DNA from: Candidatus Gottesmanbacteria bacterium
GTDB lineage: Bacteria > Patescibacteriota > Microgenomatia > UBA10105 > UBA927
Assembly: GCA_023245335.1 (NCBI GenBank)
Contig: JAHFKK010000005.1
Coordinates: forward strand, 1 to 39,141
Length of the DNA stretch: 39,141 nt
Direction of reading: 5' to 3'
Position numbers and translations under genes: made by a program. This document shows, one piece after another, positions 3,625 through 19,999 of this stretch; positions within the stretch are counted from its first letter, which is position 1; every line of letters starts with the position of its first letter. The notes beneath the pieces are model-generated. The model was given only the letters and a program-made list of their open reading frames with translations. It was not told the DNA's origin and searched no databases.

Positions 3625-3627
3625 TGT

Positions 3628-4491: not shown

Positions 4492-4494
4492 CGC

Positions 4495-4524
4495 TTGACA
4501 AGAAATAGTGCTTATGCGTAATAT
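4495..4524 (+). promoter_or_regulatory. Sigma70-like promoter for scaffold and coat genes
   Basis: TTGACA (4495-4500) and TAATAT (4519-4524) are separated by 18 nt, just after the minor head gene and 55 nt before the scaffold start. It would give the scaffold and coat genes their own strong transcription. Confidence 0.7.
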
Positions 4525-4579
4525 GGGTACAGGCTCTTTTGTTGGTGGAAGCGACCACTAAAAAAAGCGTAACAAAAAT

Positions 4580-5251
4580 ATGCCAGATCCAACACCACCC
4601 GCAGCAGCGGGAGCAGATCCAACACCACCAGCGGCAGCAGCCGTTGTTGACCCAAAACCAGGAGAAGGTGGCGCAGCGCCATTTGATCCTACAAAACTTG
4701 GCGATGGGGACCTTGCAAAGGTTCTCGAAGACCCAAGATTGTGGAGCCATCCCCGCATGGTCGAGTTGACCAGCGCGAAGAAGGCGCTGGATAAGGCGAA
4801 AGAGGATCAGAAAAAAGCTGATGACGAAGCGCTTGTGAAAAACAAGCAATTCGAGGAGTTGGCAGCCAGGAGAACCCAAGAAGCAGAAGCGGCACGCACG
4901 GAATTGCAAACGGAGCGTTTGAATAATCGCATCATTACCGAGGCCACCAAAAAGGGTGTCGTCGATGTAGATGCAGCCTTGAAGCTTTTGGATCGTTCTA
5001 AAATCAAAGTCGGTGAAGACGGTAAAATCGAAGGTATCGTCGAGGCACTAGACGCATTATTGACAGACAAACCGTACTTAGGAGGAAAAAAGGGCGGTGT
5101 AGGTCATGGAACGCAACCGGCTGCAACTGGCGATGGTGAAAAAATAAAATTGTCTGATATTCGTAACCCTGTGTACTATCAAGCGCATCGAGCCGAAATT
5201 CTCAAAGCGCAAATCGAGGGCAGAGTTGAAGACGATACCCAAAGCAGATAG
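4580..5251 (+). CDS. Capsid scaffolding protein
   Basis: A 223-residue hydrophilic protein lying directly before the coat gene, the standard scaffold position. The first 40 residues are Pro/Ala-rich, residues 60-120 form a charged coiled coil (KKALDKAKEDQKK, EAEAARTELQ), and a globular helical end contains LLDRSKIKVGEDGKIEGI followed by a LTDKPYL-like turn, a pattern I recognise from scaffolds of Gram-positive phages. It should template procapsid assembly and then leave. No protease gene is evident nearby, so it may be released intact as in P22. Confidence 0.85.
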   Translation: MPDPTPPAAAGADPTPPAAAAVVDPKPGEGGAAPFDPTKLGDGDLAKVLEDPRLWSHPRMVELTSAKKALDKAKEDQKKADDEALVKNKQFEELAARRTQEAEAARTELQTERLNNRIITEATKKGVVDVDAALKLLDRSKIKVGEDGKIEGIVEALDALLTDKPYLGGKKGGVGHGTQPAATGDGEKIKLSDIRNPVYYQAHRAEILKAQIEGRVEDDTQSR

Positions 5252-5290
5252 GCCGATTACTTCTTTTGATTTCATCCCCGACTAATTATT

Positions 5291-6211
5291 ATGCCAGACA
5301 CATTTACGCCTACAACGGACGCGAAAGCGATACCAACTGTTGTTGCGCAAGAAACAATCAAGCAGCTTCCCGCAGCCATGGGAATTGCTCGGTTTGTATC
5401 GAAAGATACGGACTGGACCAGTAACGATTTTGCAAACTATGGTGACACGTTACAGATCACCAAGCCAGGATCAATCGTTGCCAAAAAGAAAACACCGGGT
5501 ACACCGATCACGTACCAAAATGCAACTGCCGACAAAGTGTCTGTCACTCTTGACACACACACGTACGTTGCACTTTTGCATGAGGACATCACAAAACTCT
5601 TGCGGAAGCCGGATCTGCAGCTTGCCTATGCACAGCGCATGGCAATCGTGATTGCAGAGAGCATCGAAAGCTCAATTTTCGCGTTGCACCCAAGCATTAC
5701 GAACACGGTGACGTGGGATCGTACCAGTGCAACCACGGTCGAATCTTCATTCCTGAAGCTTCGCTCGAAGTTTTCCCGGCTCAAGGTTGCGCCAGGAGAA
5801 CGAAAAGATGTGTTTTTCGACACATCGATCATCGACGATTTACTTGCTAACACCAAGTATTCATCGGGTGATTTCGTGTTGAATCTGCCGACAGAGGAAG
5901 GTGTCCTTCGCCGGATCTACGGATTCAATATTCATGAAAGCCAACTGGTCCCGACTACGGGATCCCCGGTTGCTTACCACAACCTGGCCCTCACGAAGTG
6001 GGGTGTCGTGCTTGTCAGTCGCCCAATGCCATTGGATGGCAATGGAAAAGGTGTATCACAATACATCATCAATGACCCTGCGACCGGCCTTGCATTCCGC
6101 ATGACCGAGGGTTATGACAAGGACAACATGGGAACGACCATGAACCTTGACGTTTTGACTGGCGCTGCTCTTGCAGATGTTAACCAAATCGTTGAAGTCG
6201 AGAGCTTCTAA
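5291..6211 (+). CDS. Major capsid protein (P22 coat-like, HK97 fold)
   Basis: A 306-residue coat subunit. Position after the scaffold, size and an N-terminus beginning with TTDAKAIPTVVAQETIKQL fit the P22-type coat group of HK97-fold proteins. Other family-like stretches are GDTLQITKPGS (residues 50-60), the helix ending in AIVIAESIESSIFAL (about 113-127), and the C-terminal GYDKDNMGTTMNLDVLTGA. It is followed at once by a strong terminator (6237-6268), as expected for the most expressed gene. It is also the last structural gene before the glycosylation island, which makes it a candidate acceptor for the island's sugars (inference). Confidence 0.88.
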   Translation: MPDTFTPTTDAKAIPTVVAQETIKQLPAAMGIARFVSKDTDWTSNDFANYGDTLQITKPGSIVAKKKTPGTPITYQNATADKVSVTLDTHTYVALLHEDITKLLRKPDLQLAYAQRMAIVIAESIESSIFALHPSITNTVTWDRTSATTVESSFLKLRSKFSRLKVAPGERKDVFFDTSIIDDLLANTKYSSGDFVLNLPTEEGVLRRIYGFNIHESQLVPTTGSPVAYHNLALTKWGVVLVSRPMPLDGNGKGVSQYIINDPATGLAFRMTEGYDKDNMGTTMNLDVLTGAALADVNQIVEVESF

Positions 6212-6236
6212 ACCGGCTCTTTCATATAGTCAGCTC

Positions 6237-6268
6237 AAATCCGGCCCTTGCCCAAGGGGCCGGATTTT
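6237..6268 (+). terminator. Intrinsic terminator after the coat gene
   Basis: An 11-bp perfect stem pairs 6237-6247 (AAATCCGGCCC) with 6257-6267 around a 9-nt loop and runs into a short T tract. It closes the head operon. Confidence 0.85.
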
Positions 6269-6270
6269 CG

Positions 6271-6279
6271 TGGTATAAT
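6271..6279 (+). promoter_or_regulatory. Extended -10 promoter inside the terminator-rich gap
   Basis: TGG-TATAAT lies immediately after the coat terminator. No clear -35 is visible, but the TGn extension could compensate. Transcription would start near 6286. Confidence 0.4.
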
Positions 6280-6285
6280 CAGGAA

Positions 6286-6337
6286 GGAATAAGGTGTTCA
6301 TATCGGATTGAGCCAACAGATAACTGTTGGCTCTTTT
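6286..6337 (+). ncRNA. Possible small RNA between two terminators
   Basis: A promoter-like TGG-TATAAT at 6271-6279 and a perfect intrinsic terminator at 6310-6337 define a transcript of about 50 nt with no substantial coding capacity. Only a 5-codon GTG frame follows an AGGAAGG-like site. Read-through to 6430 would give about 145 nt with three hairpins. It may be a small RNA or a leader of the island. The evidence is structural only. Confidence 0.3.
6310..6337 (+). terminator. Second intrinsic terminator in the gap
   Basis: GAGCCAACAG (6310-6319), loop ATAA, and CTGTTGGCTC (6324-6333) form a perfect 10-bp stem followed by TTTT. Confidence 0.8.
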
Positions 6338-6356
6338 CGTGGTAGCATAAGAACGT

Positions 6357-6385
6357 GGGGCAAGGCGTCGTGAATGCTTTGGCCC
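6357..6385 (+). other. Hairpin between second and third terminators
   Basis: GGGGCAAGGC (6357-6366) pairs with GCTTTGGCCC (6376-6385) at nine of ten positions around a 9-nt loop. It may be part of a structured leader RNA. Confidence 0.4.
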
Positions 6386-6400
6386 AAATATTCGCGGCTT

Positions 6401-6430
6401 ACGGCCATCCTGGACAGGGGTGGCCGTTTT
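6401..6430 (+). terminator. Third terminator-like hairpin before the glycosyltransferase island
   Basis: ACGGCCA (6401-6407) pairs with TGGCCGT (6421-6427), with additional CC/GG pairing inside, followed by TTTT. It lies 43 nt before the first glycosyltransferase, so island expression is separated from coat expression. Confidence 0.6.
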
Positions 6431-6472
6431 GCTATTTCCAAAGTATGATGATTGTAATATGATAGGAAAATC

Positions 6473-7696
6473 ATGTTTTATTTGAAGAATCCGGTTGGTC
6501 GAATTGTTGTTGTTGATACCCAAGGGGAATATGATAATTGGCTCACGAAAGATGGATTTGCGGCTGCTACAAAAGAGCAAATCGATGAATTCACGATCGG
6601 TCGCATAAAGCTTATCGATGACATGAAAAAAGCTGCCGTTGTCACGCACCAGGTTGGTGATGGAATTTATTTTGCGACAGTCAGCCCGGGTGGAAACGAT
6701 GGATATGGTGTGGCTAGTGGTTTACTGATCCGGGAAATGCAAAAGTTGGGTCTTACCATCAAGACGTATTTCGATCGGCAGCGCCTTGCATTTTTATTCC
6801 ACAATCCCTATTCACTCCCCAACCTTGATACCAGCTACCGCATCATTTATACCATGTTTGAAAGCGACAAGATCCCGGACGAATGGATTGAATATTTGAA
6901 AATAGCCGATCGTGTGTTGGTGCCTTCAAAATGGTGTGCAAGTGTCTTTGCAAAATCCGGCATCGATGCGACGGTCGTGCCTCTTGGGTATGATGATGCG
7001 ATATTTAAGCCACAGGATCGAGTGATAAAGTCAGAAAATCGAGAGCCATTTTGTTTTCTTCATTACAATGCATACAATGCCCGGAAGGGTCACTTGGAGG
7101 TTTTTAAGGCATTTACAGAGGAGTTTGAATTGGATGAACCAGTCAAGTTGATTCTAAAAACAACGGTTCCGGATCCGTATAAGCGATTTCCCATCAACCA
7201 AAATATCTATCGAAACATTGAAATCATCACCGGCAAGGTGATGCCGCTTGAGCTGCAGACATTGATGGCCCGATCAGATTGTTTTGTGTTTCCTTCCCGC
7301 GGTGAAGGATTTGGTGTGCCACCGATCGAATGCATGGCCACAGGTATGCCAGCTATCGTGCCAAATGCGCATGGTATATCAGAATATTTCAATGCTGATT
7401 ATATGTATGAAGTAGCAGTCGCCGGCGAAACTCCCGCGTTGTATTCCAGGTACAAAGGAATGGATGTGGGGAAAATGGTGTTGTGTGATGTGAAGGATTT
7501 GCGCCGGCAAATGCGGTATGTATATGAACATCAACAAGAGGCGCACGATAAAGGGCTTGCGGCATCAGATTATGCGAAGCAATGGACAATCGGCAAAACC
7601 GCTGGTATGCTCAAAGATATAATAGAATCAGTTATTACACAGCCGGCAAGGCAGCAAGTTGTATCAAATTTTTTATTGCTTGAGCCGGTACGATAG
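6473..7696 (+). CDS. Glycosyltransferase, GT-B fold (GT4-like)
   Basis: A 407-residue predicted retaining glycosyltransferase. An N-terminal module of about 55 residues (FYLKNPVGRIVVVD, then a GF-x-AAT-KEQ stretch) precedes a GT-B body. The acceptor domain has the glycine motif GGNDGYGVASG (73-83). The donor domain has RKGHLEVFKAF (204-214) and the EX7E motif E278-GFGVPPI-E286 inside SRGEGFGVPPIECMATG, typical of GT4. The sugar and acceptor cannot be read from sequence. It opens the island, 261 nt after the coat gene. A -10-like TAATAT ends at 6460 and TAGGA lies before the ATG. Confidence 0.88.
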   Translation: MFYLKNPVGRIVVVDTQGEYDNWLTKDGFAAATKEQIDEFTIGRIKLIDDMKKAAVVTHQVGDGIYFATVSPGGNDGYGVASGLLIREMQKLGLTIKTYFDRQRLAFLFHNPYSLPNLDTSYRIIYTMFESDKIPDEWIEYLKIADRVLVPSKWCASVFAKSGIDATVVPLGYDDAIFKPQDRVIKSENREPFCFLHYNAYNARKGHLEVFKAFTEEFELDEPVKLILKTTVPDPYKRFPINQNIYRNIEIITGKVMPLELQTLMARSDCFVFPSRGEGFGVPPIECMATGMPAIVPNAHGISEYFNADYMYEVAVAGETPALYSRYKGMDVGKMVLCDVKDLRRQMRYVYEHQQEAHDKGLAASDYAKQWTIGKTAGMLKDIIESVITQPARQQVVSNFLLLEPVR

Positions 7697-7709
7697 GGGG
7701 TGAATATAT

Positions 7710-7934
7710 ATGCAGAAAAAAAACGATAACACAGAGATCCGGGGAAAAGTTGTTTTTGCATTTCGCTATGTGTGTCATGGATGCACACAACCAGCTGCGT
7801 ATGCTGAAAATACGGAGGATGTAAAATCCTGTACTTGTCCGCATTGTCATAAGACCCAGGAGTGCAAACCAGAAAATTGGGTATTGATGGGCGAAACGGA
7901 AAAAGCGCAGATCAATGCACGGTATGGCGTATAA
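7710..7934 (+). CDS. Small zinc-ribbon protein
   Basis: A 74-residue protein with two Cys pairs, CHGC (22-25) and CPHC (43-46), spaced like a zinc ribbon, so it probably binds one Zn ion. The excellent Shine-Dalgarno AGGGGGTGA (7695-7703) sits 6 nt from the ATG, making this one of the best ribosome sites in the island. It lies between two glycosyltransferases and overlaps the next small zinc protein. No function can be assigned; such ribbons often bind nucleic acid or protein partners. Confidence 0.75.
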   Translation: MQKKNDNTEIRGKVVFAFRYVCHGCTQPAAYAENTEDVKSCTCPHCHKTQECKPENWVLMGETEKAQINARYGV

Positions 7935-8154
7935 ATTTGCATACATTTGCCAATGGTGCGGTGGGGAAGCGTTCTACACCGATATCAAGCCGAGCATGGG
8001 CGAATTGGTAAAATCAGAAGACTTTGTATTGCCCGATGGTTCACATCCGACGGAAGGCAGTCAGATTATTTGTCCGCGATGTCAACAGCCATTACCGACA
8101 ATGTTTTCTGAAAATGTTGTTGAAACGGGCAAATATCATCATCACGATCTATGA
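7924..8154 (+). CDS. Second small zinc-ribbon protein
   Basis: A 76-residue protein with CQWC (9-12) and CPRC (50-53), probably a zinc ribbon related in design to its upstream neighbour. The start at 7924 overlaps the upstream stop; an in-frame ATG at 7915 would add three residues, and neither has a clear Shine-Dalgarno. The stop overlaps the next glycosyltransferase start by four bases (ATGA), so expression is coupled. The C-terminus is His-rich (KYHHHDL). Confidence 0.72.
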   Translation: MAYKFAYICQWCGGEAFYTDIKPSMGELVKSEDFVLPDGSHPTEGSQIICPRCQQPLPTMFSENVVETGKYHHHDL

Positions 8155-9260
8155 ATGTTCGATACTGCGGTCCGGCGCTTGATTATTCCGGATATGGCGA
8201 AGCAAATCGGCACGATATCGCTGCACTAGCGAGTGCCGATATCGGTGTGAGTGTCGAGCTTACCCGTCACTGTCTTGAGATTGGAGAATTCGGCGCCCTG
8301 GGTGAAATGATCCGGGACATTTCCAATCGAAAGCTTGAGTATAAAATAAAGATCCTTCATACGACCCCGAATATATACGGTCAATTTATAGAACCCGGAA
8401 AATATCATATTGGTCGGGTTTTTTGGGAAACCAACAAGTTGCCACCGGATTTTGTTCGCGGGATCCAGATGGTCAATGAGATATGGACAGGGAGCAAGTA
8501 CAATGCCCAGGCGATCCGCAATTCCGGCATCGATAAGCCGATCTTCATTATTCCGGAAGCGATAGATGAGAATATAGGCACGGTGGAGCCGTACAATGCC
8601 CCTAAAATGGCCGAATACTACTTCTACGGTATGTTTGAGTGGACCGAGCGCAAGAACCCTGCGGTACTCTTGGAAGCATTTTGGCGTGAATTCGAAGGAA
8701 CGCCAGGGGTTGCGCTCGTTTTGAAAACATACATTGATAATTTTCTGCCGGACAAACGGGTTATCATCGATGAGTATGTGGCACAAATGAAAAAGCGTGT
8801 ACCACTGGCTAATTATGCCCCGGTATATTTGTATCGCCGGCTCATGCGACGCCAGGACATTTATCGATTTCATAAGACGTTCAATTGTTTTGTTAGTACC
8901 CATCGTGGCGAGGGCTGGGGGATCCCGCAGATGGAAGCGCTATTGATGGGCAACCCCATTATTTCAACCAATTGCGGCGGGATCCATGAATATTTGGTCG
9001 ATCGTGAAAGTGCGTATTTACTCCCCTATCATTTGGTGCCGCTTGTTACCAATAACCGCAATGCGCAATGGTATTGTGAGGATCAGAAGTGGGCGGATGT
9101 CAATGTGGACGATGTACGGGCAGCTATGCGATATGTCTATAACCATAAGGATGAAGCGGCGGCCACTGGTGTTGTTGGCCAAGAAGTTGTACGATCGACA
9201 TTTGCTGTTGAAACTATTGGACAGAAAATGCGCGAACGATTGGAGGCAATAAAATTATGA
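8151..9260 (+). CDS. Glycosyltransferase, GT-B fold (GT4-like)
   Basis: A 369-residue glycosyltransferase. The N-terminus reads RYCGPALDYSGYGEANR, a glycine-rich first loop seen in GT4 proteins acting on glycan chains. The donor domain has MFEWTERKNPAVLLEAF (161-177) and EX7E with E254 and E262 in HRGEGWGIPQMEALLMG. It shares general design, but not close sequence, with the gene at 6473. It is coupled to its neighbours on both sides by ATGA overlaps. Donor and acceptor are unknown. Confidence 0.88.
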   Translation: MNVRYCGPALDYSGYGEANRHDIAALASADIGVSVELTRHCLEIGEFGALGEMIRDISNRKLEYKIKILHTTPNIYGQFIEPGKYHIGRVFWETNKLPPDFVRGIQMVNEIWTGSKYNAQAIRNSGIDKPIFIIPEAIDENIGTVEPYNAPKMAEYYFYGMFEWTERKNPAVLLEAFWREFEGTPGVALVLKTYIDNFLPDKRVIIDEYVAQMKKRVPLANYAPVYLYRRLMRRQDIYRFHKTFNCFVSTHRGEGWGIPQMEALLMGNPIISTNCGGIHEYLVDRESAYLLPYHLVPLVTNNRNAQWYCEDQKWADVNVDDVRAAMRYVYNHKDEAAATGVVGQEVVRSTFAVETIGQKMRERLEAIKL

Positions 9261-9439
9261 GCGAGCATGATTTCAAACCGGTCCCGAATTCTTTGACCAA
9301 AAATGGTATGGTTTTATGGCGATGCGATCAGTGTGATAGCGAGGCATATTTCAAAATGGGACGAGAGCCAAGATATGTGAATCAGTTTATGCGCATCAAG
9401 ATGCCATGCTTGGCGAAGCTCATGCATCAAACATCTTGA
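9257..9439 (+). CDS. Small Cys-containing protein
   Basis: A 60-residue protein starting in an ATGA overlap with the previous gene, with GGAGG at 9242-9246 as ribosome site. It has a CDQC pair (23-26) inside WRCDQCDSEAYFKMG, one further Cys and a His near the end, so it may be half of a zinc site. Its stop codon lies within the -35 box of the next promoter. Function unknown. Confidence 0.6.
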   Translation: MSEHDFKPVPNSLTKNGMVLWRCDQCDSEAYFKMGREPRYVNQFMRIKMPCLAKLMHQTS

Positions 9440-9465
9440 CAATGATATTACAATCGTATTACAGT
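9436..9465 (+). promoter_or_regulatory. Promoter of the 11-bp-repeat family (copy 1)
   Basis: TTGACA (9436-9441), 18-nt spacer, then TACAGT (9460-9465). The spacer contains ATTACAATCGT, one unit of the 11-bp repeat shared with the promoters at 32038, 34879 and 35429. It should drive the small membrane gene at 9480 and the coupled genes after it, giving the island an internal start. Confidence 0.75.
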
Positions 9466-9479
9466 ACATAAAACTGCCT

Positions 9480-9587
9480 ATGACAAAAGATATAATTATT
9501 ACAGTGAGCGTTGGGATGGCTATAGGAATGATGGTGGGGACTAGCTGGTGCGCATATTTTCTTTGGCAATTCAAAATCTTATTATGA
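9480..9587 (+). CDS. Tiny single-pass membrane protein
   Basis: A 35-residue open frame that is almost entirely one hydrophobic helix: IIITVSVGMAIGMMVG, then TSWCAYFLW. It starts 15 nt after the promoter at 9436-9465 and ends in an ATGA overlap with the next gene, so it heads a coupled set (9480, 9584, 9772). No Shine-Dalgarno is clear. It may be a membrane anchor or leader peptide, or translated only for coupling. Confidence 0.5.
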   Translation: MTKDIIITVSVGMAIGMMVGTSWCAYFLWQFKILL

Positions 9588-9775
9588 AAAAATCGTTATC
9601 ACTTTATGGGATGGGATTCAAATTATTGCCTTGTCAAAAGAGGATGTTGAAGGAAATGCAAAAAAGTAATTTTACTAAGACGAACATAATCAAAATGCCA
9701 GGACATGGCCATTGGTCAATTATCCGTTCGATGCTCGATTTTCCTATGCCAATAGTACGAAATAATACAGTATGA
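9584..9775 (+). CDS. Small basic protein of unknown function
   Basis: A 63-residue basic protein (KKSLSLYGMGFKLLPCQKRM) with a GHGHW segment. I start it at ATG 9584, which overlaps the previous stop, rather than at upstream in-frame alternatives. The stop overlaps the next start at 9772 by ATGA. It has no motif I recognise; coupling on both sides argues that it is translated. Confidence 0.5.
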   Translation: MKKSLSLYGMGFKLLPCQKRMLKEMQKSNFTKTNIIKMPGHGHWSIIRSMLDFPMPIVRNNTV

Positions 9776-10779
9776 AAATACAATACATATCCTGTCACGC
9801 TATTCTTGAATACGACGAAGTAAAGCTGCTCACCGAGCTTGGCCACGATGTAGATTCAAATGGCGCATATCGGGATCCACGCGGCGCATACACCCTTCCA
9901 CGTCCTGGCATTGAGGGCGCAAAATTTGACCAGGCGTTTTGCGATCGTACTGCAATATTTCCAAAAACAAATCTACCGAAAGAATTGATCGATCCCTATG
10001 ATGCACTCATTTTCATGTCCGGAGAAAGCGAACAACCATTGCTGCAGAATTGGCCCAACATCAAACACAAGCGCGTCATATGGCGCACCATAGGACAATC
10101 CACACCGGCAACAGAACGGGCGATTGCTCCCCTCATTAAAGAAGGATTACAGGTTATTCGTTATTCGCCAAAAGAACGCAATATATCCGGGTATGCCGGT
10201 GATGATGCGATGATTCGCTTTTACAAGGATCCGGATGAATTCAAGGAATGGACTGGTGTGGATAAACGGCCAATCAATTTCAGTCAATCGCTTCGCGGTC
10301 GTGGTCGTTCCTGTCATTACGACGAAATACTTGGATCCATGATGGGTTTTGATGGTGCGAAAGTCTATGGAACGGGTAATGCCGATCTTGGTATGTTCAA
10401 TGGCGGCGAGGTTCCTTACTGGCATTTGAAAGAGTTGATGCAGCATTGCCGTGTGTTTGTCTATGGCGGCACCTGGCCGGCGAGCTATACCCTATCGTTT
10501 ATCGAAGCCATGATGACCGGGATCCCGATTGTGGCGATCGGGAAAAATTTGATGTACTCCCCTGGCTTTGAACAATTTGATTTTTATGAGGTGCCGGAAA
10601 TCATGCAGTTGGCCGGCCTGCAAACATTTGACGATATTGGCGCAATGCGCAATATGGTCCAACAATATTTAGAGCGTCCAGAATTAGCCCAAGAGGCTTC
10701 AAAAAAACAACGGCAAACAGCCATTGAGTTATTCGGGAAAGCGGGCATTGCAAAGCAATGGGCCGATTTCCTGGGATAG
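9772..10779 (+). CDS. Glycosyltransferase-like protein, GT-B fold
   Basis: A 335-residue protein with the overall shape of a GT-B glycosyltransferase: an N-terminal Rossmann-like half (MKIQYISCHAILEYDEVKLL, then DALIFMSGE, RVIWRTIGQS) and a C-terminal half with QHCRVFVYGGTWPASYTL and FIEAMMTGIPIVAIG. The usual EX7E first Glu is not obvious; only the second (E245) is in place, so it may be a divergent or altered-activity member. It is coupled by ATGA to the gene before. Confidence 0.75.
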   Translation: MKIQYISCHAILEYDEVKLLTELGHDVDSNGAYRDPRGAYTLPRPGIEGAKFDQAFCDRTAIFPKTNLPKELIDPYDALIFMSGESEQPLLQNWPNIKHKRVIWRTIGQSTPATERAIAPLIKEGLQVIRYSPKERNISGYAGDDAMIRFYKDPDEFKEWTGVDKRPINFSQSLRGRGRSCHYDEILGSMMGFDGAKVYGTGNADLGMFNGGEVPYWHLKELMQHCRVFVYGGTWPASYTLSFIEAMMTGIPIVAIGKNLMYSPGFEQFDFYEVPEIMQLAGLQTFDDIGAMRNMVQQYLERPELAQEASKKQRQTAIELFGKAGIAKQWADFLG

Positions 10780-10785
10780 GAATAT

Positions 10786-11178
10786 ATGATAGTAAAATTA
10801 CGTGACAATCTGTATTTGGGTGATAAAGATGCATTCACATCACTCGCCCAACTCAAGGAAATGGGGATCCAGGCAGTTGTGGTGGTGGCTAATGATTTGC
10901 CGGCTGCTACGGAGGATGAAACCGGCGTACGTGTGCATAAGCTCGGTTTGCTCGATGGACCAAATTATGGCCATGTCAAGGATCTTGCATGCCATATTCC
11001 TAAATATCTTTTGCAAAACGGTGAAACGGTACTGATCCAAAGCGTGACCGGCAAACGCCGCGGCGCTTTCGTTTGTGGCCGCACGATTTGTGAATTGGAA
11101 GGCAAGAGTATCTATGAAGTATTTGTCGAAATCCAAAAGCTTATTCCGGACTTGGATTTGTCCAAAGTTTATTTCTAG
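10786..11178 (+). CDS. Dual-specificity-phosphatase-like protein lacking the catalytic Cys
   Basis: A 130-residue protein with the layout of the dual-specificity phosphatase fold: RDNLYLGDKDAF (6-17), LKEMGIQAVVVVAND (23-37), a HKLGLLDGP segment with a possible general-acid Asp (D57), and the phosphate-loop region VLIQSVTGKRRGA (82-94). The signature HC-X5-R reads QS-X5-R: Ser86 takes the place of the nucleophilic Cys and Arg92 is kept. It should therefore bind phosphorylated ligands without hydrolysing them (pseudophosphatase, like STYX). Its place among glycosyltransferases suggests a regulatory or binding role. The fold assignment is from motif order only. Confidence 0.65.
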   Translation: MIVKLRDNLYLGDKDAFTSLAQLKEMGIQAVVVVANDLPAATEDETGVRVHKLGLLDGPNYGHVKDLACHIPKYLLQNGETVLIQSVTGKRRGAFVCGRTICELEGKSIYEVFVEIQKLIPDLDLSKVYF

Positions 11179-11181
11179 TAT

Positions 11182-11373
11182 ATGCCTAAATATTTGATCT
11201 ACGATCACATGCTCTATGAAACGTACACAGTGGCCGAAATCAATCGTACTGATTTGATTTCATTGTCAAAAGGTGAGTGCAAAGCTATTATTGATTTGAC
11301 AAATAGCACAATGTTCGATCCGAAAAAAAATGAGTGGGTGAAAATACCCACCGGGAAGGAATACAGGGGATAA
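11182..11373 (+). CDS. Small protein of unknown function
   Basis: A 63-residue protein starting 3 nt after the upstream stop and ending 2 nt before the methyltransferase start, so it is part of the island operon. It contains MPKYLIYDHMLYETY and a lysine-rich end (MFDPKKNEWVKIPTGKEY). No cysteine pairs or membrane segment are visible. No family recognised. Confidence 0.6.
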   Translation: MPKYLIYDHMLYETYTVAEINRTDLISLSKGECKAIIDLTNSTMFDPKKNEWVKIPTGKEYRG

Positions 11374-11375
11374 TT

Positions 11376-12092
11376 ATGGATATAACAGCTAGATTACAAA
11401 GACTTGATCCAACACTGTGTTTATATTTTGAAGGCGATTGGAAAATGCCGGCAGAGGGTGAAAGTCCCGGAAAATTTTTATCATTTAACGACGCAGGCCT
11501 TGAGTGTGAAACCGGCGAGCTTTTGTATTCATTTATACGCATGTTGAAACCTGACCACGTACTCGAAACTGGCACGCATGTTGGCATTGGTGCTTCATAT
11601 ATGGGAAAAGCTTTGCAAGACAATGAAAAGGGTCATTTGGACACAGTAGAATTCTTGCCGGAAATTCATTTGCGTGCATGTGAGCGAATTTATGGAGCAA
11701 TGAAGCTTGCTGGCATTGTGACTTGTCATTTGGGTGATGTTGCAAATTTCAATCCTTATATAGGCGAGGGTAGATCAAGCGATTCGCCGTGGCAGTATCA
11801 AATGATTTTATTGGACACGGAGCCACAAACGCGTTTTGCTGAATTGATAAAATTCATGCCATTTTTAGAGCCAGGCGGCTATGTATTCATCCATGACCTC
11901 GGACGGCATATGGCACAGGTGCAAGCCGTTCATCCGGATCATCCTGAAACACCATACTGGCCATGGGGACCGCTTCCACAACAAATCAAGGATTGGGTCA
12001 AAGATGGGCAGCTGCGTCCGTTTCATTTCGAAAACCCCCGGGGACTTACTGGATTTTACAAACCAAGTTCGCAGGATTATAAATGGGTATGA
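11376..12092 (+). CDS. SAM-dependent methyltransferase (class I, Methyltransf_24-like)
   Basis: A 238-residue predicted methyltransferase. Motif I is VLETGTHVGIGASYMGKAL (62-80), with the acidic residue after the next strand at DTVEF (89-93). LLDTE (145-149) corresponds to motif IV, and LEPGGYVFIHDLG (164-176) to the post-IV strand. This class often methylates sugars or small hydroxyl groups, which suits an island making modified glycans (inference). I start at ATG 11376, with AGGGGA 5 nt upstream, rather than at the earlier GTG. The stop overlaps the next start by ATGA. Confidence 0.85.
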   Translation: MDITARLQRLDPTLCLYFEGDWKMPAEGESPGKFLSFNDAGLECETGELLYSFIRMLKPDHVLETGTHVGIGASYMGKALQDNEKGHLDTVEFLPEIHLRACERIYGAMKLAGIVTCHLGDVANFNPYIGEGRSSDSPWQYQMILLDTEPQTRFAELIKFMPFLEPGGYVFIHDLGRHMAQVQAVHPDHPETPYWPWGPLPQQIKDWVKDGQLRPFHFENPRGLTGFYKPSSQDYKWV

Positions 12093-12457
12093 AATGGGCA
12101 ATCGATATCGATGGAGTTATAACCGCCAACCCGGCGGCTTTTTCGTTCCTTACCTATCATTTGAATAAAAACGAAAATAGTGACACAGTGATTATTCTCA
12201 CCTGGCGTGATGGTAGTGATCCGGAGCGACGGAAGCAAACCATGGAAGAACTTGATATATTTGGTATATATTACAACCAGGTCATCATGGCGCCAAAGAA
12301 ATTCGATAATATTCGCGCTGCAGCATTGTGGAAGATTTCAAAAATGAAAGAGCTGGGCATCAATATATGGATCGATGATGAGATAAAAATGTATATTCGG
12401 GATCTTGGTATTGACGTACACGCATTATTGCCCGATGTACATTGTATTTGGATTTAA
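12089..12457 (+). CDS. HAD-superfamily phosphatase-like protein
   Basis: A 122-residue small HAD fold protein. Motif I is AIDIDGVIT (D6 nucleophile, D8 acid), motif II is VIILTWRDG, a motif III lysine lies in the KFDNIRAAALWK region, and motif IV is WIDDE. All four are present, so it is probably active on a phosphate ester such as a sugar phosphate or nucleotide. Its minimal cap suggests a larger or flexible substrate. I use ATG 12089, which overlaps the methyltransferase stop (ATGA); an ATG at 12083 is in frame. Near a methyltransferase and glycosyltransferases it may take part in sugar-nucleotide supply. Confidence 0.78.
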   Translation: MKWAIDIDGVITANPAAFSFLTYHLNKNENSDTVIILTWRDGSDPERRKQTMEELDIFGIYYNQVIMAPKKFDNIRAAALWKISKMKELGINIWIDDEIKMYIRDLGIDVHALLPDVHCIWI

Positions 12458-12460
12458 TTT

Positions 12461-12640
12461 ATGAACGTAGTAAAAATCATATCAGTAAATAAGAAAACGA
12501 AGCAGCGTTTCATCGAGCGTAAGGATGAAAAGGGCAAACCAGTGCTGCAACGTGCCGGCCATAAAGCGATTGCCGGATGTGCGGAATGTATTATTGATGA
12601 CGGCGGCCATCTTGTCACGCGACATTGCGTGAAAGTATGA
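12461..12640 (+). CDS. Small basic Cys/His protein
   Basis: A 59-residue basic protein with QRAGHKAIAGCAECIIDDGGH and a final RHCVKV; the CAEC pair plus nearby His and Cys residues could bind a metal. It begins 3 nt after the HAD gene stop and ends in an ATGA overlap with the following glycosyltransferase. No family recognised. Confidence 0.6.
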   Translation: MNVVKIISVNKKTKQRFIERKDEKGKPVLQRAGHKAIAGCAECIIDDGGHLVTRHCVKV

Positions 12641-13632
12641 GGGCCGTTATTACTCACTTCGACGGCGACCCATTTCTTCTCAATGCCTGGCTTATGCTCT
12701 ATGAAAAATATTGGCGTGGTGAGTGCGACAAAGTATATATGGTTGTCTGCAATCGCACTGATTTTGTGCCAAAAGAAGTCACCGATTTCAATATACGCCT
12801 CGTTGCTCAATATCCGGAAATTGTATGTGAATTTGTCGATCAGTGGGAATTGCCGGAATCGGCGAATCAACGATTGTTGCAGCGTGTTACAGAGGATCAG
12901 ATAGGATTTATTGAAAGCGATGGGTTTGTGTTTGGCCGTGGCATTGTAGATCAATGTTTCCGGCTTCTCACCGAGGGGCAGGATGTCGTGTCGGCTCCCT
13001 GGGAGTTGATCCGCGATCCGTTTATCAATGGCGATTTGCATTTCAAGGGATTCATGCGGTGTTTTTTCTTTACCAAAAAGCAGGTGTTGGATCGCATCAA
13101 TGTGGATTTTTTCCCCCGGACTGCACTTGCCGGCGTCCGGATCCTTGAAACATACACACCGGCAGCTGATATTCCCCTGGATTGTTTTGGGTGGATAAGT
13201 TTGCAAATTGCCCTGTTGACGCAGAAAATTACGTTCACCAATGGTCACGTTATGACGCCGGATAATATTTTGACCCCCTGGGATAATTGGAAATGGGTGC
13301 ATGTGCGCCAAATGCAATCAAGCGCCCTGGGTATGGGTGGTGGATCTTTCAAAAACTGGATTACCAAGGATCGCCAGCATGTGTTGGATAACGTATTTGA
13401 TATCGTCAATGAGAATTTGCCAGGCGGGCCAAATGAATTCACGTTTGTCAAAGCGGTGGCATTTCGCTTGATTTTCATTGATATGTTCCTCCGGATCCAT
13501 GCTTTTGATCTCATTGGCCAATTTGCAGCGGACTATCGACAGGTGCTAGAATCGGTTATCGATCTTTATACGTTGCCGCGCGAGAGGATATACGAAATCA
13601 AGGGGTACTATAAAGCATTGTTCCAACTATGA
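12637..13632 (+). CDS. Glycosyltransferase-like protein, GT-A fold (paralogue 1 of 3)
   Basis: A 331-residue protein with a GT-A-like N-terminal domain: VITHFDGDPFLLNAWLMLY, alternating strands and helices, and GFIESDGFVFG (90-100), whose E-S-D aligns with the DXD metal/nucleotide site. It clearly resembles the next gene at F-x-GDP-x-L-x-N-x-W-L-x-LY and at the acidic site. The C-terminal third is helical and may be an acceptor or oligomerisation domain. It starts and ends in ATGA overlaps. Substrate unknown; the fold is an inference from these motifs. Confidence 0.7.
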   Translation: MRAVITHFDGDPFLLNAWLMLYEKYWRGECDKVYMVVCNRTDFVPKEVTDFNIRLVAQYPEIVCEFVDQWELPESANQRLLQRVTEDQIGFIESDGFVFGRGIVDQCFRLLTEGQDVVSAPWELIRDPFINGDLHFKGFMRCFFFTKKQVLDRINVDFFPRTALAGVRILETYTPAADIPLDCFGWISLQIALLTQKITFTNGHVMTPDNILTPWDNWKWVHVRQMQSSALGMGGGSFKNWITKDRQHVLDNVFDIVNENLPGGPNEFTFVKAVAFRLIFIDMFLRIHAFDLIGQFAADYRQVLESVIDLYTLPRERIYEIKGYYKALFQL

Positions 13633-14696
13633 CCAGCCGAGCGGCCATCTTACCATTTCCAGGCGACCCATACCTCATAAACTACTGGTTGGACCTCTAC
13701 GATCGCGTATGGGGCAATGAAGTTGATCGCCTCTATATTCACCTAAATAGCCCAATTGAGCAGCCCATGGTCAATTACATCATGGCACGCTGTAGTCGTA
13801 GCCCCCGCGTAAAGTTGATCTATACACCACAGCAAATAGAACATGGCGATGTTATCAATCGAACCCTGGACGTAGTAGAGGAAGAAAATATTATGCTCAT
13901 TGAAGATGATGCATTTATATTCAAACCCGGATCCGTCGATATGTTTTTCCGGATGCTAGAGGGCAACAATTCGAACTATGACATTATCGGCAGCAAGCGC
14001 GGATCCTGCGCCATGGAAATACTCACCCGGGCAAAGCAACTGTGGGGTTTGGATTATGAAGGCGAAGGCGACCAGGGGCCGAATTTCTGGCCATCGTTCT
14101 TTTTTACCCGGAAGGAAATACTACTCAAGACGGATCGCAATTTCGGCGCCCGGGCATGGAAAAAAGGCGAGGTTATCCCCGCTCTTGGCGATTACGTTGT
14201 CCAGGATGAAATTGCCAATGGCGATACCATGGTCCACATGAGCTTGCAATTGCGTGCGATGATTCCAAAAGAACGTATTTTGTGTATTCCACAATACCAT
14301 GGGCATCCGGATGACATGGATCATTTCGTGACGCATTACGCGTACAGCATGTTCAATGGTCAAGCAACATGGTGTCACATAGGAAGTTTATCAAGCGGTG
14401 TTGGTGGGATCCTTCGGGATAATGTCAATCGATCACTCACCCGCCGGCTTATCGATCCACCAGGACAGGCAACATCATTGCCGAATGAATGGTGCCGGTC
14501 GGATTTTGAGAAGCGAGAATTCGAGCGCCGGGTCCAATGGTGGTTGACGTTTTATGAGCATGCAAAGCCGACACCGGACACCAAGGAATTTTACGATTTA
14601 TACAATGAGGCAATCTATCGGATCATCAAACAATTCAGTTTGCGCATCACGGAAATTCGTCGCCGGCAAATTGCCTATGGTACACTTGGGTTATGA
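13629..14696 (+). CDS. Glycosyltransferase-like protein, GT-A fold (paralogue 2 of 3)
   Basis: A 355-residue paralogue of the preceding gene. It has ILPFPGDPYLINYWLDLYDR at the start and IMLIEDDAFIFKPG (88-101), where E92-D93-D94 is the DXD-like site. Later segments include FWPSFFFTRKEILL (similar to CFFFTKKQVL in the previous protein) and IPQYHGHPDDMDHFVTHY, rich in His and Asp. The shared features imply a tandem duplication that has diverged. Start and stop lie in ATGA overlaps. Confidence 0.7.
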   Translation: MTSRAAILPFPGDPYLINYWLDLYDRVWGNEVDRLYIHLNSPIEQPMVNYIMARCSRSPRVKLIYTPQQIEHGDVINRTLDVVEEENIMLIEDDAFIFKPGSVDMFFRMLEGNNSNYDIIGSKRGSCAMEILTRAKQLWGLDYEGEGDQGPNFWPSFFFTRKEILLKTDRNFGARAWKKGEVIPALGDYVVQDEIANGDTMVHMSLQLRAMIPKERILCIPQYHGHPDDMDHFVTHYAYSMFNGQATWCHIGSLSSGVGGILRDNVNRSLTRRLIDPPGQATSLPNEWCRSDFEKREFERRVQWWLTFYEHAKPTPDTKEFYDLYNEAIYRIIKQFSLRITEIRRRQIAYGTLGL

Positions 14697-14830
14697 GTAA
14701 AGGGCCATTGTATCGGTGGTTTGGATTTAACAAATGCGTGTGTCATATGCATGCAAGCATTTGGTCAATTTTTCGTTTTTTTCGAATTGGTCCATACAAA
14801 GTGAATATATTTATCACCTATGAAGCCTGA
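14693..14830 (+). CDS. Tiny basic aromatic protein
   Basis: A 45-residue open frame starting in an ATGA overlap with the previous stop and overlapping the next gene start by 11 bases. It is rich in Phe, Trp, His and basic residues (YRWFGFNKCVCHMH, then IWSIFRFFRIG) and might associate with membrane. Translation is inferred only from its overlaps. Confidence 0.4.
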   Translation: MSKGPLYRWFGFNKCVCHMHASIWSIFRFFRIGPYKVNIFITYEA

Positions 14831-15518
14831 TCTTATTATCACCTGGCCGCGTAATGTAGAGTACCCGCTTTTTCGTCAATTCGTTCGCGATTCCCGAAGT
14901 AATTTTGGCAAGGTTATTATTGTATTTACTAGCTCGGGCAGTGAGATAGATTACTCGCAATTTGTCATCAATGCCATGAGCAATGATGATTGTATATTTT
15001 TATCCAGCTCGCCTATTTTACCCGGCGAGGATTGGCGAAATGTCGCAATTCAGGACGCACTAAAATTGACAACATCCGATTGGCTGTGGTTTATGGAGCA
15101 GGATTTCTTAGTAACGGATCCGGCATTTTGGGATGAAATAAATGAATACATCACATATCGTGAGGTCATCGGTGTGAAGGAAAATAGTGGTCGTTTACAT
15201 CCCTGTTGTTTGCTTATTCGACGTGACACATTGAATCGTACAGGCTGCGATTTTGGTATCGTTCAGGACCAAATGGATCACTTCGGACTTATCCAAAGTG
15301 ACTTGGAAGCATTGGATGTTTTTATCACCGGCTTGACCCCGAAATACTACCATCATATGAATGGGTTATCACACAATTTTCACCTGGCCAGCACCATGCA
15401 AGAGGTCACGTATTATCCTGATGAATTCAAGCGATATTTGTCCGGATGTTTGACCCTCACAGGCGTGCCATTGGATCCGCGATTTGAAAAGGTGGCCAAA
15501 TCAATGTTGCTACAATAA
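14820..15518 (+). CDS. Glycosyltransferase-like protein, GT-A fold (paralogue 3 of 3)
   Basis: A 232-residue protein, a short relative of the two preceding GT-A-like genes. It starts LIITWPRNVEYPLFRQFV, and DWLWFMEQDFLVTDPAF (87-103) places E93-Q94-D95 at the DXD-like position. HPCCLLIRRDTL follows, like the region after the site in its paralogues. The length is close to a minimal GT-A domain with no C-terminal extension. Substrate unknown. Confidence 0.65.
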   Translation: MKPDLIITWPRNVEYPLFRQFVRDSRSNFGKVIIVFTSSGSEIDYSQFVINAMSNDDCIFLSSSPILPGEDWRNVAIQDALKLTTSDWLWFMEQDFLVTDPAFWDEINEYITYREVIGVKENSGRLHPCCLLIRRDTLNRTGCDFGIVQDQMDHFGLIQSDLEALDVFITGLTPKYYHHMNGLSHNFHLASTMQEVTYYPDEFKRYLSGCLTLTGVPLDPRFEKVAKSMLLQ

Positions 15519-15575
15519 TGCGGGAATAGTGGGGTTTGTGCGGTTATAGTGCGATCCCCCACCGTCCCCCGGCGG

Positions 15576-15628
15576 CACTCCCCTGTTCATATTTGAGGCT
15601 ATATATTGTATTTTGGGCGGGGGGAGTG
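15576..15628 (+). other. GC-rich hairpin in the 169-nt gap 15519-15687
   Basis: CACTCCCC (15576-15583) pairs with GGGGAGTG (15621-15628) around a 37-nt loop; nearby C-runs and G-runs offer alternative pairings. There is no T tract, so it is not a clear terminator. The gap also holds a TGT-TACAAT extended -10-like element (15659-15667) 20 nt before the next ATG. Confidence 0.4.
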
Positions 15629-15687
15629 GTAGAGTAGGGGAGCGCGTATAGATAACCATGTTACAATGAAATGAGTATATAAAATCT

Positions 15688-16731
15688 ATGTATAACGTAT
15701 TTGTCGATCAACACCACATGGGCCTGTACAATTCGCTTCGAATGCTCTTTGAAGACCGTTTGGGTGGCAAATTATTCCGGCCGATCGGTACTGCATGGAT
15801 GGAAAAAGGATATTGGAAAATGGCTGAAATATATCGCAACCATCCGGCGACTGTTGCCCAATATTTAGGGATCCCGGATGCTCTTTTTAACTCGTCCGGT
15901 ATTTATTCAATTGAAGACACCCAACATCATGCAATGACCCATGCATTGACAGTCGAAGCATTCATGCAAACCCCTATCGATATTGTTATTGCTACCCTTC
16001 CCATGCACATTGAAAGTTTCGCGCGACTGGCGGCACAACATCCGAATCATCCTAAGTTTATTTTCCAAATAGGCAATGCTTGGAATGTTCCCCCGGGCGC
16101 GCCGGTGAAAAATGTTATGGCATCAGCAGTCATCCATGAGCCAATACCGGCCGGCACAAATATAGTGACGTATCACCAGGAATTTGATGAAAAGATTTTT
16201 ACCTATTGGCTGGATTGGAAATGTCCGGAGGGACAGGAAATTGCATCATTCGTCAATTGTTTTTCTACTGATGGAAACTATGCCGGCGATTGGGAATTGT
16301 TCCAGCAAATTGAAAAGCTCATGCCGGATTGGTCATTCAAAACTTTCGGTGGATCCTGCAGGGATGGAAGCATTGGACCTATTGAAGAACTCGCAACGAA
16401 CATGCGTTTGTCGAAGTTTATTTGGCACACGAAATATGGCGGTGATGGGTATGGGCATGTGCTGTATAATTCTGCGGCAGTGGCCCGACCGATCATCACG
16501 AAGGTCGGATATTACTTTGGCAAAATGGGACATGAATTGATGCAGGATGGTGTGACGTGTATTGGCATCGATGGGTTGACCAATGAGCAAATTGTTGAAA
16601 AGATCCAATATTTTAGTGAACCGGATCGATATATTACTATGTGTAGAAATGTCCGGGCGAACTACGAAAACAAAGTGAATTTCAACACAGAATTTCAACA
16701 GTTGCAACACTTCTTGAAAAACTTGCTATAA
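15688..16731 (+). CDS. Glycosyltransferase-like protein, GT-B fold
   Basis: A 347-residue protein with a GT-B-like arrangement. An N-terminal half contains DQHHMGLYNSLRMLFEDRLGG, DIVIATLPMHIESF and FIFQIGNAWNVPP. A C-terminal half contains WSFKTFGGSCRDGSIG, a FIWHTKYGGDGYGHVLYNS loop (in place of the usual EX7E region) and a RPIITKVGYY strand. The canonical EX7E pair is missing, so the family is uncertain and it may be a divergent type. It is the last gene of the island and ends inside the -10 box of the connector promoter. Confidence 0.65.
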   Translation: MYNVFVDQHHMGLYNSLRMLFEDRLGGKLFRPIGTAWMEKGYWKMAEIYRNHPATVAQYLGIPDALFNSSGIYSIEDTQHHAMTHALTVEAFMQTPIDIVIATLPMHIESFARLAAQHPNHPKFIFQIGNAWNVPPGAPVKNVMASAVIHEPIPAGTNIVTYHQEFDEKIFTYWLDWKCPEGQEIASFVNCFSTDGNYAGDWELFQQIEKLMPDWSFKTFGGSCRDGSIGPIEELATNMRLSKFIWHTKYGGDGYGHVLYNSAAVARPIITKVGYYFGKMGHELMQDGVTCIGIDGLTNEQIVEKIQYFSEPDRYITMCRNVRANYENKVNFNTEFQQLQHFLKNLL

Positions 16732-16732
16732 T
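16702..16732 (+). promoter_or_regulatory. Leaderless-type promoter for the connector operon
   Basis: TTGCAA (16702-16707), 19-nt spacer, TGC-TATAAT (16724-16732). Exactly six bases separate the -10 box from ATG 16739, so transcription would begin at or next to the A of the start codon. There is no Shine-Dalgarno. The stop codon of the previous gene lies inside the -10. Confidence 0.65.
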
Positions 16733-16738
16733 GGCATC

Positions 16739-17416
16739 ATGGCATCCCGCAGGAACTACGTCACCGCCGCAGAAGTAAATGCACTCGCCGGATTCACCCC
16801 GACAGACGATCAAATATCCGAGGCAGAAGAACTCGTCGATGCATATGTGGGCTTTCAGGATCGTTACTACAAAGATAAGTTGGGAAGACTGGCATCGGGC
16901 GGATCCCTAAGCACTTTGCAGTTGAATGCGGAAGACATGGACAAATTTGACAATGACTATTTCAAATGGTGCGAAGTTGAAATACTCGGTGGAGCTGGCG
17001 CAGGTCAAAGGCGGACTATCCTATCCAGCACCCGTGCAGGTATTTTGACGATGCAATCAAATTGGACAACTCCCCCGGATGCAACCAGCTTCTATCGCAT
17101 TTATCAGCTCGGTAAATTCCCCCGTTGTGAGGATATCGTCTTTGATGGGGTGAATGTGCCGAACACCTACTACAAACAAATCCCGGAAGCAGTCAAGCGC
17201 GCAGTTGCTATGCAATGCGAATATGCTCACGCAATGGGGGCTGATTTTTTCTCGACGGACAAATCAGAAAAGCAAAGTGAGAATATCGGCGACTATGGCT
17301 ATACCAATGCCGGTGGCAACTCGGGATCCGGCGGCGGACCAAACAAGCTGTTGGCACCAAAGGCAAAAACATTGCTTCGAGGCATAATGAATCGCGGCGG
17401 CGAAATTGTGGCATAA
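16739..17416 (+). CDS. Head-tail connector protein (gp6/gp15-type adaptor)
   Basis: A 225-residue protein in the usual adaptor place, first after the head block apart from the island. The N-terminus YVTAAEVNALAGFTPTDDQISEAEELVDAYV looks like the helical start of connector adaptors. A beta-rich insertion follows (WCEVEILGGAGAGQRRTIL), then a helix with IPEAVKRAVAMQCEYAHA. The C-terminal tail is Gly/Lys-rich. It should bind under the portal. Assignment is by position and helix pattern. Confidence 0.7.
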   Translation: MASRRNYVTAAEVNALAGFTPTDDQISEAEELVDAYVGFQDRYYKDKLGRLASGGSLSTLQLNAEDMDKFDNDYFKWCEVEILGGAGAGQRRTILSSTRAGILTMQSNWTTPPDATSFYRIYQLGKFPRCEDIVFDGVNVPNTYYKQIPEAVKRAVAMQCEYAHAMGADFFSTDKSEKQSENIGDYGYTNAGGNSGSGGGPNKLLAPKAKTLLRGIMNRGGEIVA

Positions 17417-17417
17417 T
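17412..17417 (+). promoter_or_regulatory. -10-like box 7 nt before the next start
   Basis: TGG-CATAAT lies at 17409-17417 and ATG follows at 17425 after seven bases, with no Shine-Dalgarno. It fits the leaderless pattern but is weak alone because it overlaps coding sequence. Confidence 0.3.
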
Positions 17418-17424
17418 ATGAAAT

Positions 17425-17748
17425 ATGAGCTTACTCGGATTACTCAATCAGGAAATTACCCTCTACGCAAAAACGGGGTATAACAAAGAAGGCCGGGAGG
17501 CTGTAGGCTCCGGATCCACCGTAAACGCACGCGTGCAATTGGTCAGCAAACGCCGCTTATTACCCAATAACAGCCTGGTCATTGTGAGTGCTATTGTTTA
17601 CGTGCCGGCGACAACCAGTATCAATACAGATGATAAGGTGACCTATGGTGGGGTCGATTATAAAGTGTTCTCCCGCACAGATGCAGTTGGCGGCAATGGT
17701 GCCATCGATCACATCAAGCTGGAACTTATAAAATGGCAGGCAATATAA
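17425..17748 (+). CDS. Head completion / head closure protein
   Basis: A 107-residue beta-rich protein. ITLYAKTGYNKEGREAVG at the start and TTSINTDDKVTYGGVDYKVF later are the pattern of head-closure (SPP1 gp16/gp9-like) subunits, which form a ring below the adaptor to retain DNA. The size fits. It overlaps the next gene by 16 bases. Gene order (adaptor, closure, minor capsid, terminator, tube) supports the call. Confidence 0.72.
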   Translation: MSLLGLLNQEITLYAKTGYNKEGREAVGSGSTVNARVQLVSKRRLLPNNSLVIVSAIVYVPATTSINTDDKVTYGGVDYKVFSRTDAVGGNGAIDHIKLELIKWQAI

Positions 17749-18119
17749 ATTTTGACGATTCTGATTTTGAAAAGAAAATGCAAATCCTAGCACAGAAGGC
17801 CGAGGAAGCGCAAAGCCGTGCGAGCCAGGATATCGGGGAAGAACTCATGCGCCTAAGCGGATTTGTTGTGCCGCATAAAAAAGGACTATTGCAGGCAAGT
17901 GGAAGCGTGCAGCCGACCTATGAAGAAAATGGTAAATATATTACGATTGTCGGGTATAACAAAGTGTATGCGGCCAGGTTGCATGAGCATCCGGAGTATC
18001 ATTTTACACAGAGCGGCCCAGGAACCCGTGGCGCAAAGTATTTGGAAAATCCTATGAAAAATAACCTAGCGAATTTTCAAAAATATTATCTGCAGTCAAT
18101 CCAGCAAATGTTGGTATAG
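17733..18119 (+). CDS. Minor capsid / tail-completion protein (HK97 gp10-like)
   Basis: A 128-residue protein. The C-terminal half GYNKVYAARLHEHPEYHF, followed by a QSGPGTRGAKYLENPM stretch, is characteristic of small neck proteins of this family. The N-terminus is a charged helix (EKKMQILAQKAEEAQSRA). It lies between head closure and tail terminator genes and should act at the head-tail joint. Confidence 0.78.
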   Translation: MAGNINFDDSDFEKKMQILAQKAEEAQSRASQDIGEELMRLSGFVVPHKKGLLQASGSVQPTYEENGKYITIVGYNKVYAARLHEHPEYHFTQSGPGTRGAKYLENPMKNNLANFQKYYLQSIQQMLV

Positions 18120-18120
18120 T

Positions 18121-18504: not shown

Positions 18505-18507
18505 CCT

Positions 18508-18729: not shown

Positions 18730-18730
18730 T

Positions 18731-19240: not shown

Positions 19241-19291
19241 GACTTTTTTTATTGGGCAAATGTGGCCCTTTGTGGCCCGCCTAAAAATTCT

Positions 19292-19989: not shown

Positions 19990-19999
19990 TTTTCCCCGT

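Follow-up and report, generated by a model that had tools for sequence, protein, structure and literature searches.

Phage-encoded glycosyltransferases (GTs) that act on the phage particle itself are already known. In the accounts given by PMC11256854 and PMC12619734, which cite Freeman et al. 2023, the mycobacteriophages Che8 and Rita encode GTs that glycosylate the capsid and tail tube, providing a shield. Stepwise protein glycosylation is also described for the serine-rich-repeat adhesin loci of Gram-positive bacteria, where GtfA/B is followed by successive GTs (PMC5207161), and for mimiviruses and chloroviruses, whose autonomous glycosylation involves viral GT sets, collagen-like acceptors and methylated sugars (PMC4691112). 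In addition, the host-recognition clusters of pelagimyophages, uncultured phages of small bacteria, hold several GTs beside tail-fibre genes (PMC7029224). Here, we describe a gene cassette of seven GT-type genes and a methyltransferase (MT) at positions 6473-16731 of contig JAHFKK010000005.1, which probably serves to attach a methylated oligosaccharide to a virion protein by O-glycosylation in the cytosol. The window, meaning the whole 39,141-nt stretch of DNA analysed, begins and ends with the same 120 bases (1-120 = 39022-39141). Because of this identical terminal repeat, the phage contig is a complete circular assembly, and the window is the whole genome of a siphophage with ~39,021 bp of unique sequence (~39.0 kb).

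Like the mycobacteriophage system, the cassette consists of GT genes within a phage genome, with a virion target that is here predicted; unlike in the mycobacteriophages, seven GTs and an MT form a fixed block between the coat and adaptor genes. The resemblance to serine-rich-repeat loci lies in a cytosolic GT block that stands, in some relatives of the window phage, beside a long Ser-rich repeat protein, and in the occurrence of GtfA and SdgB among the fold neighbours of the last GT. In contrast to those loci, no accessory Sec system is seen, the candidate acceptor in relatives is virion-fibre-like, and no sequence homology has been shown. Viral GT sets, candidate collagen-like acceptors and predicted methylated sugars recall mimiviruses and chloroviruses, but these are giant viruses of eukaryotes without a common gene order, and some make their own nucleotide sugars, which the cassette does not. 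Pelagimyophage clusters are hypervariable and rich in GT8, whereas the gene set and order of the cassette are fixed. The head gene order of the window phage equals that of Paenibacillus phage Unity (Halcyonevirus), with a portal 34% identical. A limited search of the open-access literature found no fixed cassette of seven GTs and an MT, with mucin- or collagen-like neighbours and spread over several backbones.

Glycosyltransferases and methyltransferase of the cassette

The island of 10,259 bp makes up 26.3% of the unique genome. The initial annotation, made from the sequence alone, had given it the same coordinates and gene count and more than a quarter of the genome, all of which proved correct. 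The island encodes seven GT-type proteins, as had been proposed, six with solid fold or homology support and one, at 9772, with weak support (genes are named by their start; the coat, island and adaptor genes and the hairpins and promoter-like element described below are on the forward (+) strand). Two exceed the Pfam cut-offs for GT group 1, namely GT-B enzyme 1, which is GT4-like (6473-7696; PF00534, E = 6e-15; PHROG 2170, E = 3e-37), and GT-B enzyme 2 (8151-9260; Pfam E = 4e-9, with a PHROG 2170 glycosyltransferase match). The EX7E motifs assigned to both genes are real and read EGFGVPPIE at 7304-7330 and EGWGIPQME at 8910-8936. The 6473 gene is kept in all clade contigs covering its site, and EX7E is invariant in 38/38 sequences of the 8151 family. 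The GT-B-like enzyme 3 (9772-10779) lacks the first E of EX7E and matches PF00534 below the cut-off (E = 6e-4); its family is conserved in clade members and distant phages.

Structure prediction and family searches, which had been proposed beforehand as the check on the annotation with non-GT folds as the adverse outcome, returned GT folds. Enzyme 5 (13629-14696) has no Pfam, PHROG or PDB match by sequence; its AlphaFold (AF2) model (predicted local distance difference test score, pLDDT, 94.4) finds GT-A enzymes of the PDB in Foldseek (E ~2e-6, with 520 PDB matches at E <= 0.001). Its paralogue, enzyme 4 (12637-13632), is recognized by the 13629 family profile (E = 5e-23), and some of the relatives carry a copy of it with 45-57% identity; for its annotated start at 12625, the ATG at 12637 is more likely. 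Enzyme 6 (14820-15518) is joined to 13629 by a profile-profile match (hhalign 95%), and its best PDB sequence match, SpsA, is weak. These three GT-A enzymes carry the DXD-like motifs that had been reported, ESD at 12913, EDD at 13902 and EQD at 15096, whereas the positions first given for them (12637, 13629 and 14820) are gene starts. EDD is invariant in all 31 sequences of the 13629 family and ExD in all 29 of the 14820 family. Enzyme 7 (15688-16731) has no family matches by sequence, and its AF2 model (pLDDT 91.3) finds PglA, HepE and the protein Ser glycosyltransferases SdgB and GtfA (E = 1e-6 to 1e-9). By these models, 13629 is a predicted GT-A and 15688 a predicted GT-B enzyme, while Pfam matches identify 6473 and 8151, and homology to 13629 identifies 12637 and 14820, as predicted GTs.

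The predicted S-adenosylmethionine (SAM)-dependent MT of the Methyltransf_24 type (11376-12092; PF13578, E = 1.5e-8) is kept in nearly all cassettes. Its family assignment stood, but its start moved from 11334 to 11376 by alignment to the relative L002. The ATGA overlaps reported between genes are likewise real, at 8151, 9257, 9772 and 13629. Chance or misread open reading frames (ORFs) were considered and ruled out, as dozens of contigs retain the folds and motifs at 40-72% identity.

Conservation and mobility of the cassette

IMG/VR was scanned with the adaptor and with two genes of the cassette, which yielded 23, 52 and 9 loci in total for the two cassette genes and the adaptor, respectively; all window proteins were then mapped onto these loci. 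About 55 IMG/VR contigs share one order from coat to adaptor, GT-GT-GT-MT-GT-GT-GT, at ~40-72% identity. The full order is TerL, portal, minor head, scaffold, coat, GT, GT, GT, a dual-specificity-phosphatase (DSP)-like gene in some, MT, HAD and GT12637 in some, GT13629, GT14820, GT15688 and adaptor. Within its own clade, the island is a constant component of the head block and not an oddity of a single phage, and GT distances track portal distances (Mantel r 0.56-0.82). In Paenibacillus phage Unity, the equal head block is island-free and the coat is followed by the next head gene after 17 bp; compared with the Unity type, the island is therefore an insertion. This comparison with a relative lacking the island bears out the earlier statement that it interrupts an ordered block; within its own clade, however, the island belongs to that block.

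Six divergent contigs (L018, L020, L021, L022, L023 and L024) keep the cassette order at 28-54% identity on other backbones; L018 has near-copies in L019 and L025, and L021 and L024 end before the last cassette genes. A distant form of the same coat occurs in L021, L023 and L024, with the cassette located elsewhere; no such coat was seen in L018, L020 and L022, contigs that are fragments, in which absence is no proof. In L020, additional GT and MT genes and one for a GDP-mannose-dehydratase-like epimerase are located close to fibre-like genes. Judged by gene order, the cassette moves as a unit between phage backbones.

In 50,697 phage records, the products of 9772, the MT gene, 13629, 14820 and 15688 have no match at E 1e-5, and among the matches listed for 8151, identity is at most 27%, mostly to Streptomyces phages. 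No deposited phage is a near DNA match to the window. Recent acquisition from a host was also considered and ruled out: the 13629 family has matches in only 3/287 genomes sampled from the bin's phylum, of which two are phage contigs of the clade and one is weak.

Candidate acceptor proteins

In the window, a gap of only 7 bp (16732-16738) separates the last GT from the adaptor, and this slot is empty. Among 20 relatives, seven are likewise empty there, and 13 hold 1.5-8 kb, encoding long, Ser/Thr-rich, mucin- or collagen-like proteins of fibre type. Examples are a 1257-aa protein with a SPSASISPSVSES-type repeat in L009, a protein of 1185 aa in L077 that combines 43% Ser+Thr with a lectin-like LamG domain, and proteins with collagen-like repeats in L017 and L082. 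A Ser-rich repeat protein stands beside the GTs in L009, L077 and L004, and the window's own site is without one. At the same loci, ORFs of at least 300 aa with at least 22% Ser+Thr, a threshold picked after the data were seen, account for 13/19 in the slot and 1/124 elsewhere (Fisher p = 4e-13). By composition, the best acceptor candidate in the window is the ORF at 23662-24879 (24% Ser+Thr), although its role as acceptor is a guess.

The slot proteins of six relatives (L004, L009, L002, L017, L062 and L085) share a short C-terminal Trp-rich motif (WYTK/WYNK...W), perhaps a common virion docking tag. In L077, the interval from the cassette to the gene for the 1185-aa LamG protein is occupied, at 1767-6424, by additional GT2-like genes and one dehydrogenase-like gene, which suggests glycan diversification.

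Transcription signals

The location after the coat gene was noted correctly in the initial annotation, but not its directness: coat and first GT are 261 bp apart, and in this gap three terminator-like hairpins with T-runs follow one another (6239-6265, 6309-6334 and 6401-6427). The whole gap folds with z = -6.8, and at least one terminator-like hairpin occurs in the corresponding gap of 30/41 relatives. The hairpins fit a high output of coat and a low output of the enzymes.

A strong sigma-70-like, phage promoter-like element lies within the island at 9436-9465, consisting of TTGACA, an 18-nt spacer with an 11-bp direct repeat, and TACAGT. Near-copies are present at 32038-32067, 34879-34908 and 35429-35458 (four elements in all, against none in 100 shuffles), and the spacers of the four elements hold two 11-bp direct repeats, ATTACAATCAT. 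They possibly represent a phage regulon with the operator inside the promoter. Related TTGACA/TTACAnT elements occur at the matching site in seven relatives. Because of the element at 9436-9465, its near-copies in the 32-35 kb region and the related elements in relatives, 9772-16731 is probably a second transcription unit, co-regulated with non-structural genes.

Proposed function and alternative explanations

With seven GTs and an MT, a multi-sugar, possibly methylated glycan, as initially suggested, is still the best reading of the predicted enzymes. Under the proposed mechanism, the enzymes of a dedicated phage operon would act in the host cytoplasm and equip a phage protein with a short oligosaccharide, probably O-methylated, either ahead of virion assembly or in its course. 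The first sugar may be attached to Ser/Thr residues of a surface-exposed virion protein by one or more of the GT-B enzymes, after which the remaining GTs would lengthen the glycan in turn and the MT would cap or decorate it. The donors would be nucleotide sugars of the host, and the bin from which the contig comes encodes many sugar-nucleotide enzymes, if it represents the host. The Ser/Thr-rich or collagen-like fibre protein whose gene directly follows the cassette is the likely acceptor in relatives; in the window phage, this role may fall to a tail-side surface protein such as the product of 23662-24879, or to the coat or tube. The resulting sugar coat may mask the particle or alter adsorption. 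A cytosolic, stepwise process is favoured because the enzymes are soluble and neither a flippase or ligase nor Gtr proteins or base-modifying enzymes were found. Specifically, no transmembrane segment is predicted in any island protein of at least 60 aa, GT and MT proteins included; island scans found no GtrA flippase, membrane GtrB or other transmembrane GT or flippase, and accessory Sec export (SecA2/SecY2) is missing among island proteins.

The main rival explanation, which we consider unlikely, is that the GTs alter the host cell surface (lipopolysaccharide, exopolysaccharide, pilus or S-layer glycan) and thereby prevent superinfection or affect adhesion, a role that has been proposed in seroconverting phages and pelagimyophages. 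The GT clusters of the latter have been read in this way (PMC7029224), sugar-nucleotide genes of Patescibacteriota phages have been interpreted as auxiliary metabolic genes acting on the host surface (PMC12911398), and upstream of the genes from 9772 onward lies a promoter of the same type as those in the non-structural 32-35 kb region. However, the island lacks GtrA/GtrB, a flippase, polymerase, ligase and any membrane-spanning GT, the cassette keeps a constant position beside coat and fibre-like genes, and no integrase was found among scanned proteins, so lysogenic conversion is not indicated. The initial annotation had left virion and host surface open; the evidence now tilts to the virion because of the missing flippase, polymerase, ligase and Gtr-type membrane proteins together with the Ser/Thr-rich, fibre-like neighbours in relatives. 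That the enzymes instead glycosylate a host protein, such as a pilin or a defence or transcription factor, is very unlikely. Soluble, cytosolic enzymes and the promoter shared with the non-structural region would suit such a target, but no data imply a host acceptor, and seven successive enzymes would exceed the need of single-site inactivation. Least likely is the hypermodification of virion DNA bases with sugars against restriction, which the annotation had already doubted. Viral GTs are known to decorate DNA with diverse glycans (Pyle et al. 2024, as cited in PMC12619734), and in L018 a C5-cytosine methylase gene follows the cassette at a distance of 1.3 kb. Against this stand the virion genes adjoining the clade core, the small-molecule/sugar type of the sole methyltransferase, and scans of window proteins that found no base hydroxylase, hydroxymethylase, TET/JBP-type enzyme or C5-methylase.

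Several points weigh against glycosylation of a virion protein as proposed above. There is no direct evidence of a glycan, and the donor and acceptor specificities cannot be read from the predicted folds. The TTGACA/TTACAnT promoter type recurs in the non-structural 32-35 kb region, a pattern that would suit enzymes expressed early and directed at a host target. The window phage has no Ser/Thr-rich neighbour gene, and the enrichment in relatives depends on the post hoc threshold of 0.22. In addition, the cassette of L018 lies among replication genes rather than structural ones, with a DNA polymerase III-type gene on one side and RecA-like and C5-methylase genes on the other. Finally, MT distances do not track portal distances (r -0.04), and for this reason the MT may have been swapped independently.

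We tentatively advance a broader and less secure proposal, in which the cassette would be a transferable, fixed-order glycan operon (GT-GT-GT-MT-GT-GT-GT), unknown in deposited phages, that acts in the cytoplasm on mucin-like and collagen-like fibres of the virion. Such an operon would be the bacterial-virus equivalent of the glycosylation systems of serine-rich-repeat adhesins and giant viruses, and it would be widespread among uncultured phages, including some that probably have Patescibacteria as hosts. If a virion protein is indeed the target, a whole clade of uncultured phages spends about a quarter of its genome on a fixed, multi-step particle glycan, and elaborate virion glycosylation would be a core inherited trait in some phages and not a stray moron. 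The clade provides a named candidate acceptor, the Ser/Thr-rich fibre of relatives, and several GT families without a match in deposited phages, with a bearing on how phages reach or evade ultra-small, surface-attached bacteria.

Additional genes of the island

The phosphatase-like binding protein of the initial annotation corresponds to a DSP-like protein (10786-11178; weak Pfam DSPc match, E = 0.045). Because the catalytic Cys is absent here and at all 10 homologous loci, it is a predicted pseudophosphatase and not an active phosphatase. The proposed HAD phosphatase is a small HAD-like protein with a DxDGV motif (12083-12457; weak Pfam HAD match; PHROG 415, E = 1.6e-5), 60-64% identical in a subset of relatives. 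Among the small zinc or membrane proteins that had been listed, the Cys-rich ones were recovered: two zinc-ribbon-like proteins without a Pfam match (7710-7934, present in a few relatives, and 7915-8154) and a Cys-containing protein from an ATGA-coupled ORF (9257-9439, also in L008, L017, L046 and L051). The membrane part did not hold up, as the only candidate is a doubtful 35-aa hydrophobic ORF with a possible single span (9480-9587; maximum hydropathy 1.74), absent from the closest relative, L026.

Genome context and host

Terminase, portal, minor head protein, scaffold and coat genes precede the island, and adaptor, closure, neck, tail tube, tape measure and tail protein genes and a short non-structural region follow it. 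The flanking genes are the major coat protein (5291-6211; PHROG 283/267 major head protein, E = 4e-27) and the head-tail adaptor (16739-17416; PHROG 541/22288; 42-58% in relatives). No polymerase, primase, helicase or integrase was recognisable among the scanned proteins of 30300-39141, and the phage may depend entirely on host replication. Also encoded are an M24 peptidase resembling methionine aminopeptidase (37534-38301; Pfam E = 4e-33), unusual for a 39-kb phage, and a CAP/SCP-domain protein (32650-33201; Pfam E = 6.5e-17), which has a hydrophobic stretch at its N terminus followed up by a Thr/Pro linker in its make-up and is predicted to be a secreted or anchored phage protein.

A Patescibacteria host is plausible. 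The phage contig (C25) belongs to a 1.55-Mb Patescibacteria bin, 98% complete, and the clade member L087 (= G096), to which the L077 phage contig is identical, lies in a second Patescibacteria bin; another clade member was binned with Omnitrophota. The tetranucleotide bias of the phage agrees best with the Patescibacteria bin (r 0.49), a weak signal given that binning itself uses composition. No CRISPR spacer of the bin convincingly matched window positions 1-20000, and a coat profile search of 380 sampled genomes of the bin's phylum gave two matches, both phage contigs. The many sugar-nucleotide enzymes of the bin are encoded in C12 (600-680 kb). Its 16S rRNA gene (L003, 1501-3319) spans 1819 bp against a model of 1533 positions, corresponding to ~300 nt of insertions.

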